Shown here: positions 58,079 through 60,442 of the stretch, piece by piece
Numbering within the stretch: position 1 is the first letter of the stretch
Layout: every line of letters begins with the position of its first letter
Assembly: GCF_000400935.1 (NCBI RefSeq)
Contig: NC_021280.1
Location: forward strand, 186,001-250,000
DNA length: 64,000 nucleotides
Source of the DNA: Spiroplasma chrysopicola DF-1
Lineage (GTDB): Bacteria; Bacillota_I; Bacilli_A; Mycoplasmatales; Mycoplasmataceae
Reading direction: 5' to 3'
Program-made: the position numbers and the translations under genes
Notes under the pieces: generated by a model
What the model saw: only the letters and a program-made list of their open reading frames with translations
The model's database searches: none
Told to the model about the DNA's origin: nothing

Positions 58079-58396
58079 TTGAACGAAATTATTAAACAAT
58101 TACGGATTACACGAGGTTTGACGCAAAGAGAGTTAGCGGAGATATCAGGGTTACAGCAATCAACAATTTGTCGAATTGAAAATAATTGTTCAGCAACAAG
58201 CTGAAGTAAATTATTGGCCCTATTAATTGCGTTGAAAATTGATGTAAATGACTTTATTACAAAACTAAATTCATTTAATTCGAGAAAAGTATGTGAGTTT
58301 TTATCATTAATTATTGATAATCCTAAAATTAGAAAAGAATTGGCCAATAATCCAAAATTATTGGCCACCAAAATTTTAAGAATTTTTTCAAATTAA
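58079..58396 (+). CDS. Small XRE-family helix-turn-helix regulator
   Basis: 105 residues from a TTG start preceded by AAAGGGG. An upstream GTG at 58004 would lie on the transcript start. The HTH covers residues 4-55: IIKQLRITRGLTQRELAEIS, GLQQSTICRIENNCSATSW (Trp is TGA), SKLLALLIALKIDV. The C-terminal half (DFITKLNSFNSRKVCEFLSL) is alpha-helical and unassigned. Such small regulators often control a neighbouring gene or a mobile element; none is seen here. Its target is unknown. Confidence 0.82.
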
Positions 58397-58461: not shown

Positions 58462-58490
58462 ATACCCTTTTTTGTAAAGGGTTTTTTCAG
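58462..58490 (+). terminator. Terminator after the XRE gene
   Basis: ACCCTTT (58464-58470) and AAAGGGT (58476-58482) with a TTTGT loop, followed by TTTTTC. Confidence 0.88.
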
Positions 58491-58507
58491 TTTTAACCCC
58501 TTAATGT

Positions 58508-58513
58508 TATAAT
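58508..58513 (+). promoter_or_regulatory. Extended -10 promoter of the zinc-finger gene pair
   Basis: TTAATGTTATAATAAAT: TG one base before TATAAT, no convincing -35. AGGAGGA and the start codon follow. Confidence 0.5.
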
Positions 58514-58548: not shown

Positions 58549-59034
58549 ATGATCTGAAATTATTATTTTATTTTTGACAGTAATGGAATTAACCAAGAAA
58601 TCCGTTGCATTTGTCGTTCAGCTGAAGATGCTGTTTTAGCTTTACAGGATTGTTATTTGGATAATAAATATAACGAAGACATTGTGAAGCAAATTTCATT
58701 TTGTTTGGTTTATAGTTATGATGATAGCAATGAAAGTTATGAATTTAGCAAACGCTTAACAGGAGAATTTATTAATAGTTTGCTATTATGTAAACAGTGT
58801 AACCGAATTAAACATAAATTAAACGCTGACAAAATTTGTTCAGAATGTGAAAATGAATTAATTGGTTTGGAAACATTTAAATGTGATTTATGTAAAAAAC
58901 AACGTTTAACTCGTGATGATTTTGCTCGTGAATTATATGGGGAATTAATTTATGAAGGTCACAAATATAAAATTTGTTTTAAATGTGCAGAACAAAACTA
59001 TCAAAAAGAACCAAAGAAAAGGGAGATGAAATAA
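58549..59034 (+). CDS. Double zinc-finger protein A
   Basis: 161 residues, not recognised. Residues 1-75 form a globular part (IWNYYFIFDSNGINQEIRC, then YEFSKRL), followed by four CxxC pairs: CKQC (about 81), CSEC (97), CDLC (113) and CFKC (141), consistent with two zinc ribbons. It overlaps protein B by one base (TAATG) and resembles it over its whole length, including YEFSK and the same pattern of CxxC pairs, so the two are tandem paralogues. No membrane segment. Function unknown; nucleic-acid or protein binding by zinc ribbons is possible. Confidence 0.82.
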
Positions 59035-59504
59035 TGAATATGCAAAAAAATTTATATGTTATTTTTTATGTTGAAGACCCCAATAAACGTCGTAGCGAAA
59101 AAGTTGTTAAAGTTTTTACAACTGCTGAACAAACAGTTAAATATTTATTAACAAAAGTAACAATTGAAGGGAAAAAGATCATCAAAGATAATCGTTGAAT
59201 TTTACAAGTCTTTAACTATATTCCTGCTGATGATCGCTATGAATTTTCAAAATGAGAAACAGCACAAGTTAAAAGCGTAGTTGGAATTTGTACTCATTGT
59301 CATGAATACTTTGCTCGGGAAAACAATTTAAATATGTGTGATAGTTGTTTTCTACAAGTTCAAAAAGGATTACAAGAATGTGACGTTTGTCATCAATTCT
59401 TTAACCCAATAGGAACAAAATTTGTTTCAAATGGGGATGTTTTTCCATCATTAGCCTGCTTAGATTGTTCAAAAGATTTAATTAAAAATTTAAAATTAAA
59501 CTAA
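59034..59504 (+). CDS. Double zinc-finger protein B
   Basis: 156 residues. The N-terminal part KNLYVIFYVEDPNKRRSEKV and PADDRYEFSKWETA (Trp is TGA) precedes CTHC, CDSC, CDVC and CLDC, four CxxC pairs as in protein A. Start ATG 59034 shares a base with the stop of A; a second ATG is two codons later. AAGGGAGA in the end of gene A is the ribosome site. The product should be coexpressed with A, possibly as a pair. No homologue is recognised; the domain arrangement is the only clue. Confidence 0.82.
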
Positions 59505-59575: not shown

Positions 59576-60442
59576 ATGTTAAAGTTAAATAATAAGATAT
59601 TATTTTGATTTAGATTAAGCGCTTTACTAGTAGTGGTATTCTTTTTAATCTCTGATCTAGTTTTAACAATTATCAACCCTGCAGGAATTAATGCTGATTT
59701 AGGATATGCAGAGCGAGTTTCTAATTACTATGCTTTTTTTACAACTCAAAGTAATTATATTGTCGCGGCTTATTTCTTAGGTTATTTATTTGAATCAAAA
59801 TTTCGTAATACGCGCCCATCAGATGTAATTAAATTAGCGGTTGTAACATACATTACAGTAACAATGCTAGTATTCTGATTTGGAATTTTTACCAATACGC
59901 AAACAAATACCTCATATAGTTCTTATGAATGAATTTCAACAATAATTTTACACTTAGTGATTCCATTCTGTATGATTTTGAGTTATATTTTAACGGCGGG
60001 AGAAAGTCAGTATAATATTCGTAACCATTATAAATTATCATTATGATTAATTTTAGCTTATCCGGTCTTATATTTTGTAGTTATTTTAATTCGAGGTATC
60101 TTCCGACAAATGGACCATCGCCCTGAAGGAACGTGGTTTCCATATTTCTTTTTAAATATTTACCAACCAAATGGGATTTTGATTTTGGCGCTAATTTTTA
60201 TTTGTATTCTTGTTTTATTTGTTGGGTTACAATATATTTATCTATGAATAAACAATATGCTATTTAGACGAAATAAAGGAGAAACCTTAAATACAACAGT
60301 TAACAAAAAGGTTTTTGGAATTAATACCAAACCATTACCAATTAAAAATGAAAAAGTATTTATTCCGGCAACATTAATAAATTTAAATAAAAGTTATGTT
60401 AAAAAAATAGCAGATAGTAAAAACGAGAAAAATGTTAAGTAA
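59576..60442 (+). CDS. Pr6Pr-family membrane protein
   Basis: 288 residues with six hydrophobic helices (first LSALLVVVFFLISDLVL near 17), and a basic tail of ~50 residues (VNKKVFGINTKPLPIKNEKV). The segment SNYYAFFTTQSNYIVAAYFL with the TTQSN motif and ILHLVIPFCMIL with a His match the Pr6Pr family of uncharacterised membrane proteins. Several TGA Trp. Strong ribosome site; separate promoter. A weaker paralogue lies at 3046-3795. No transport substrate is known. Confidence 0.82.

Follow-up and report, generated by a model that had tools for sequence, protein, structure and literature searches.

Why do two small overlapping genes remain intact in Spiroplasma genomes in which the genes beside them fall apart? 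The genus, which includes plant pathogens and insect symbionts, has reduced genomes, and a two-gene unit that stays intact amid decaying neighbours is a promising place to look for a lineage-specific function. The two genes, called A and B here, lie in a stretch of 64,000 nucleotides from Spiroplasma chrysopicola DF-1 (contig NC_021280.1, positions 186,001 to 250,000; hereafter the window, to whose first base all coordinates refer). A and B are a lineage-specific, co-retained orphan pair that is zinc-finger-like and matches no family in the libraries searched. At a probability of roughly four in ten, the favoured reading is that A and B form an obligate heteromer, which would have four structural zinc sites and serve as an adaptor for nucleic acid or a ribonucleoprotein.

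Two overlapping genes and their paired cysteines

Open reading frames were translated with genetic code table 4. Gene A (58549-59034, forward strand) encodes 161 amino acids plus a stop and gene B (59034-59504, forward strand) 156 amino acids plus a stop, as the preliminary description of overlapping genes for proteins of these lengths had it. The overlap is a single base, since the TAA stop codon of A (59032-59034) ends on the base with which the ATG start codon of B begins (59034). This arrangement is kept in 11 of 11 genomes with both genes, as TAA with ATG in four and as TAG with GTG in seven.

Each protein consists of an N-terminal domain (N-domain) of about 80 residues followed by four CxxC pairs in the same order, as described earlier. 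The N-domain of A (residues 1-79; 58549-58785, forward strand) is acidic, has a predicted beta-beta-alpha-beta-beta-alpha order and contains the invariant cysteines C20, C22, C35 and C52. The cysteine domain of A (58786-59031, forward strand) carries CKQC (C81/C84), CSEC (C97/C100), CDLC (C112/C115) and CFKC (C143/C146) and ends in a variable C-terminal tail. The N-domain of B (residues 1-84; 59034-59285, forward strand) is basic, is cysteine-free in the window protein and has the same predicted order with a hairpin inserted before the second beta-beta-alpha unit. The cysteine domain of B (59286-59501, forward strand) carries CTHC (C86/C89), CDSC (C102/C105), CDVC (C116/C119) and CLDC (C142/C145); the first and third pairs read CxxCH (C86-H90 and C116-H120), and H90 and H120 are invariant. 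Successive pairs are separated by 12, 11 and 27 residues in A and by 12, 10 and 22 residues in B.

The eight cysteines of the CxxC pairs are invariant in the 11 A and 11 B sequences from intact copies. The pairs had been counted correctly, but the total of eight for A was too low, since 12 cysteines of A are invariant across the 11 sequences, four of them in the N-domain. No conserved cysteine was found in the B N-domain among 11 sequences, one of which has a lone C61. Among 53 nonoverlapping window ORFs of at least 150 amino acids, only A and B have at least four CxxC pairs. Cysteine makes up 0.85% of window residues, from which about 0.01 CxxC would be expected per 161 amino acids, so the pattern is not a product of chance.

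A and B are homologous to each other (BLASTP E 1e-5 over 65 residues). Profile-profile alignment with hhalign gives E 2e-7 and a probability of 93.7 over 62 columns, which begin at the final strand pair of the N-domain and end at the third CxxC. A joint alignment of A and B keeps all eight CxxC-pair cysteines, a Y-E-x-x-K motif and a few other columns. The motif had been given as YEFSK, a form that does not hold across the 11 species: A proteins have YEFSK, YEFNK or YELNK and B proteins YEFSK or YEYSK. Identity to the window protein is 58-94% for A proteins and 60-96% for B proteins whereas A and B share 22-31%, which places the duplication before the sampled species. A and B are ancient, distantly related paralogues.

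Both genes are under purifying selection, with dN below dS in 14 of 14 comparisons (NG86; seven species pairs, two genes each). The dN/dS ratio is 0.05-0.10 in four species pairs, and 0.14-0.19 in G017/G019. Two very close pairs, which differ by few changes, range from 0.07 to 0.52, with the maximum in B of G019/G016. Invariant columns account for about 51% of the A N-domain and about 42% of the B N-domain; in the cysteine domain they account for 56% in A and 62% in B, and the last 11 residues of A contain none. Pairwise distances of A and B run in parallel (r 0.96), as common descent alone would also lead one to expect.

The pair had been assigned one promoter. A promoter-like site upstream of A (58484-58513, forward strand; TTTTCA, a spacer of 18 and TATAAT, with 10 of 12 matches) has a TG before its TATAAT, and by eye a TATAAT-like box stands upstream of A in other species too. 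The TG-preceded box speaks for the assignment, but promoter-like matches overall are no more common than in shuffled sequence (18 versus 18.3), so the box taken alone is weak evidence. A terminator-like hairpin (58464-58482, forward strand) stands between XRE and A; counting it once per strand, the stretch has four such sites where 0.6 would be expected.

Retention of the pair and decay of its neighbours

A and B are both intact in 11 of the 14 genomes of their own genus, and neither an intact A nor an intact B was found alone in the 60 family genomes searched. A matches 12 of the 14 genus genomes and B matches 11. In G020 the A gene has an in-frame stop and has lost one CxxC cysteine, and B was not found. 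This decayed A (L013 / L090:2224-2706) lies amid transposase-like ORFs, with rpsP still downstream. In the genus genomes G024 and G025 neither A nor B was found; by eye, transposase-like ORFs follow asnS in both, and rpsP lies some kilobases on in G025 and was not found within the 8 kb read of G024.

Searches beyond the genus gave no convincing relative. The 46 family genomes of other genera yielded one weak A match (G050:C1:212039), which was rejected because it crosses the end of a 304-amino-acid ORF, J-domain-like by eye, and a stop. An extra A match within the genus (G021:C1:1559811) was also rejected; it falls inside a 417-amino-acid ORF that by eye is transposase-like. In 320 genomes of the order, a set that overlaps the 60 family genomes, the A profile found four scraps outside the genus (33-40 positions, E 0.002-0.01) and the B profile none. 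A combined profile run against a class sample of 395 genomes returned five genus genomes and one 42-position scrap in an 864-amino-acid frame. Profile searches of genome contigs matched only S. poulsonii (MSRO_BK) and S. phoeniceum (P40) with B and nothing with A. Among open-licence work on Spiroplasma zinc proteins and on the S. chrysopicola and S. syrphidicola genomes, no literature was found that points to the pair.

The locus is ordered as an rpiR-type regulator, a purine nucleoside phosphorylase-like gene, asnS, XRE, A, B, Pr6Pr, rpsP, rimM, trmD and rplS, where the phosphorylase, asnS, rpsP, rimM, trmD and rplS are provisional assignments judged by sequence. The XRE-type HTH regulator gene (58082-58396, forward strand) is just upstream of A; this is an association, which does not imply that the regulator acts on A-B. 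Ten of the 60 family genomes contain a relative of the regulator at E 1e-12 or better, and all ten have intact A-B. The gene is broken in G016 and was not found at E 1e-12 in G018, where the ORF upstream of A is by eye without a recognisable HTH start. A co-occurrence of XRE with the pair, which had been proposed for survey, therefore holds in one direction, as XRE was found among the 60 only in pair-bearing genomes, but not in the other, as among the 11 it is broken in one and was not found in another.

The proposed link with Pr6Pr proved weak, since relatives of that gene are found in 50 of the 60 family genomes, often several per genome. In G014, G016, G017 and G021 the copy beside B carries interrupting TAA or TAG codons. 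The window encodes a Pr6Pr-type membrane protein at 59576-60442, and three further relatives are present in the same genome.

A third gene, of 163-167 amino acids, stands between B and Pr6Pr in G015, G022 and G023 (copies at L006:2459-2950, L004:2481-2984 and L008:504-995), overlapping B by one base in L006 and L008. It is broken in G018, leaves a remnant in S. poulsonii by eye, has distant relatives in G051 and G028 and was not found in the window genome. Comparison with Pfam, NCBIfam, PHROGs and PADLOC gave no match for it. By eye, the start of its product resembles MazF/PemK-type proteins. With the XRE gene, the Pr6Pr copy and the third gene decayed in sister genomes that keep A-B intact, the pair outlives its neighbours.

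Such surroundings raise the alternative that the XRE repressor, the small Cys-rich proteins and the third gene are what is left of a domesticated phage or mobile cassette that now helps to control phages or provides immunity. Profiles of phage repressors match the XRE neighbour (phrog_8, 1.2e-11), the third gene is patchy, and the viral fold list of B contains small phage proteins, none of them at E 0.001 or better. However, B has no relative in viral contigs, phage records or plasmid records, and when phage records were searched with A and B, A gave one match to an unannotated record (E 0.1) that was taken as chance. PADLOC yields nothing for the three genes, A still precedes rpsP in G020, and the purifying selection on A and B argues in the same direction. 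We consider this origin unlikely.

Profile echoes and predicted folds

No family exceeded its cut-off when A and B were compared with Pfam and NCBIfam and their halves with Pfam, and comparison with PHROGs and PADLOC gave nothing better than E 0.04 (for PADLOC, 0 families at E up to 1). The statement that the pair belongs to no known family thus agrees with all four libraries, none of which holds a convincing match. The result named beforehand as speaking against a novel pair, that a known zinc-ribbon family would match by profile, was looked for and did not appear. The best double zinc ribbon scores, 14.9 bits for DZR (PF12773; cut-off 27.3) and 13.9 bits for DZR_2 (PF18912; cut-off 27), are far below threshold.

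Several fragmentary matches were set aside. DUF1588 (PSCyt3) for B (E 0.011, 16.5 of 27 bits) and a methyl-CoM-reductase component for A (E 0.016, 13.8 of 517 bits) cover a fragment only and were taken as chance. Two multi-haem cytochrome c families reached E 0.026 and 0.029 with B (PF13447, 14.2 of 21.9 bits; PF14537, 15.3 of 25 bits), below their cut-offs; these echoes stem from the two CxxCH motifs. The haem c of multi-haem cytochromes is attached outside the cytosol and no attachment pathway is known from Spiroplasma, so a haem c reading of B was rejected. A sequence search of the PDB with both profiles gave unrelated molecules (best E 0.43 for A and 0.15 for B).

Two other echoes suggest an alternative function. 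Fin and Gin are small anti-sigma zinc proteins with CxxC pairs, and A/B might, like Bacillus Gin/CsfB and Fin, regulate RNA polymerase or a sigma factor by sequestering a protein and not nucleic acid. Fin (NF053765) matches B residues 60-104 (E 0.081) and Gin (PF10764) the C-terminal half of A (E 3), and a regulator gene adjoins the pair. These scores, 13.4 of 95 bits for Fin and 8.4 of 27 bits for Gin, are far below the curated cut-offs, and the models have only 76 and 45 positions, so neither spans the N-domain and the four CxxC pairs. A regulator of this kind is a doubtful identity for A and B.

Alignments of 22 sequences were used to build structural models of A and B. The model of A is poor (mean pLDDT 54.7, pTM 0.47; 41.5-54.7 over five models) and the B model moderate (mean pLDDT 72.6, pTM 0.60; 59.4-72.6 over five models), with pLDDT of 73-90 in the N-domain blocks of B and about 44-70 in its cysteine part. 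Both models show an N-domain of strand-strand-helix-strand-strand-helix, to which B adds a small hairpin, and two C-terminal modules, each with its second CxxC placed where a helix begins, as in treble clefs. In B these modules run from strands 83-94 to helix 103-114 at C102/C105 and from strands 129-138 to helix 143-152 at C142/C145, all within the part with pLDDT of about 44-70. The models suggest, at low confidence, that the cysteine half of each protein is made of two treble-clef-like modules. The paired zinc-ribbon unit proposed for these genes is partly supported: the paired operon is real and without a known family, but the modelled modules look, with the same low confidence, more like treble clefs than ribbons.

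In fold searches with these models, no row for A or B reached E 0.001 or Z 5. For A the first 11 Foldseek rows are ERH (enhancer of rudimentary homologue) chains (E 0.04-0.58), while for B a ZIC3 zinc-finger chain ranks first (E 0.044), ERH follows from rank 2 (E 0.14) and many eIF4E rows are present. VIA aligned chiefly residues 1-82 of A and 1-101 of B. ERH is on top for A (Z 4.7, rmsd 4.2, 76 aligned), tied with a Rubisco small-subunit-like fold (Z 4.3), AcrIIC5 (4.2), Top7 (4.0) and PII (3.9). It is also on top for B (Z 4.6, rmsd 4.2, 78 aligned), where 11 of the top 12 rows are ERH and AcrIIC5 (Z 3.8) is tied with it. VIA Z values below 8 may reflect a common arrangement, and the results for A and B are not independent, since both models come from the same sequences. 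The Pfam ER profile (PF01133) has no match at the locus, its sole match in the genome lying elsewhere and below cut-off (E 0.07), and it is absent from the hmmscan matches of the A and B N-domains at E up to 10. The resemblance to ERH is therefore a hint about shape and not about kinship.

A candidate two-part complex and its known counterparts

A and B most likely form one two-part complex, as their co-retention and the fixed one-base overlap suggest, and both are probably zinc-binding proteins, judged by their sequences. A possible course of events and of action can be outlined. The two copies would stem from a duplication that preceded the divergence of the sampled species in the genus. Translation of A and B would be coupled, with B starting on the last base of the A stop, and would probably yield similar amounts of both proteins. 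The beta-beta-alpha-beta-beta-alpha sheets of the acidic A and the basic B N-domain might then pair with each other. In all 11 species the N-domain carries a net charge of -5 to -9 in A and of +4 to +6 in B, but these opposite charges are weak evidence for pairing because, among 185 stretches of 80 residues from other window proteins, 12% are at -5 or below and 27% at +4 or above, and because the 11 species are not independent.

Each C-terminal half would fold round two zinc ions, each bound by CxxC + CxxC, probably as tandem treble-clef fingers, and H90 and H120 of B could serve as extra metal ligands. Zinc is the metal one would naturally expect at such sites in a cytosolic protein. Once assembled, the complex would be a cytosolic adaptor that binds nucleic acid or ribonucleoproteins. 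The choice of nucleic acid or a ribonucleoprotein as candidate target is a guess drawn from general knowledge of such fingers. The C-terminal half of B is about neutral (net charge -2 to +2), which counts against direct binding of nucleic acid by B.

The cysteines of the A N-domain (C20, C22, C35 and C52) may coordinate an additional metal or act as a thiol sensor; they may form a third site or merely belong to the core. They also bear on a further alternative, in which the pair is a metal or thiol sensor or store whose 20 invariant cysteines buffer zinc or sense oxidation, with those of the A N-domain as the switch. The 12 invariant cysteines of A fit such a role, as do the two invariant CxxCH motifs of B with H90 and H120 as possible further ligands; at least four cysteines occur in only 1 of 185 stretches of 80 residues in other window proteins. 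However, no recognisable metal regulator or thiol enzyme was seen by eye among the ORFs at 55-64 kb, and the regular CxxC spacing is of the kind typical of structural zinc. A sensor or store is thus improbable. Less probable still is a bacterial analogue of the ERH module that arose within this lineage, as an asymmetric ERH-shaped heterodimer with four treble-clef fingers and a metal/thiol site in A that gates RNA or DNA binding. Nothing here shows A/B to be a new kind of system.

The favoured A:B adaptor can be set beside several known proteins. The double zinc ribbons DZR and DZR_2 share with A and B consecutive CxxC pairs, and their weak matches run across the first three pairs; the best matches, DZR with B and DZR_2 with A, omit the last CxxC and the N-domain. 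A phage protein with DUF7336 (PF24024), a small phage and bacterial domain, stands at rank 24 (E 0.19) in the viral fold list of B; the DUF7336 profile matches nothing in the genome up to E 10.

The leading, though weak, fold match is ERH, whose fold is classified as SCOPe d.330 and also called the RAGNYA fold, and which is not known to have a zinc part. The modelled A and B N-domains resemble it in their beta-beta-alpha-beta-beta-alpha order but differ in sequence, with 2-16% identity in the fold alignments. The ERH fold (b1-b2-a1-a2-b3-b4-a3) has between strands 2 and 3 a second helix that is not seen in the A and B models. ERH pairs through a sheet face, according to an excerpt of one study (PMC3755989), and is stated in a passage of another not to be found in bacteria (PMC10605862). 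A real A:B heteromer would illustrate compactly how a duplicated zinc protein can be split into two halves that depend on each other, and might extend to bacteria a fold that has been described as eukaryotic.
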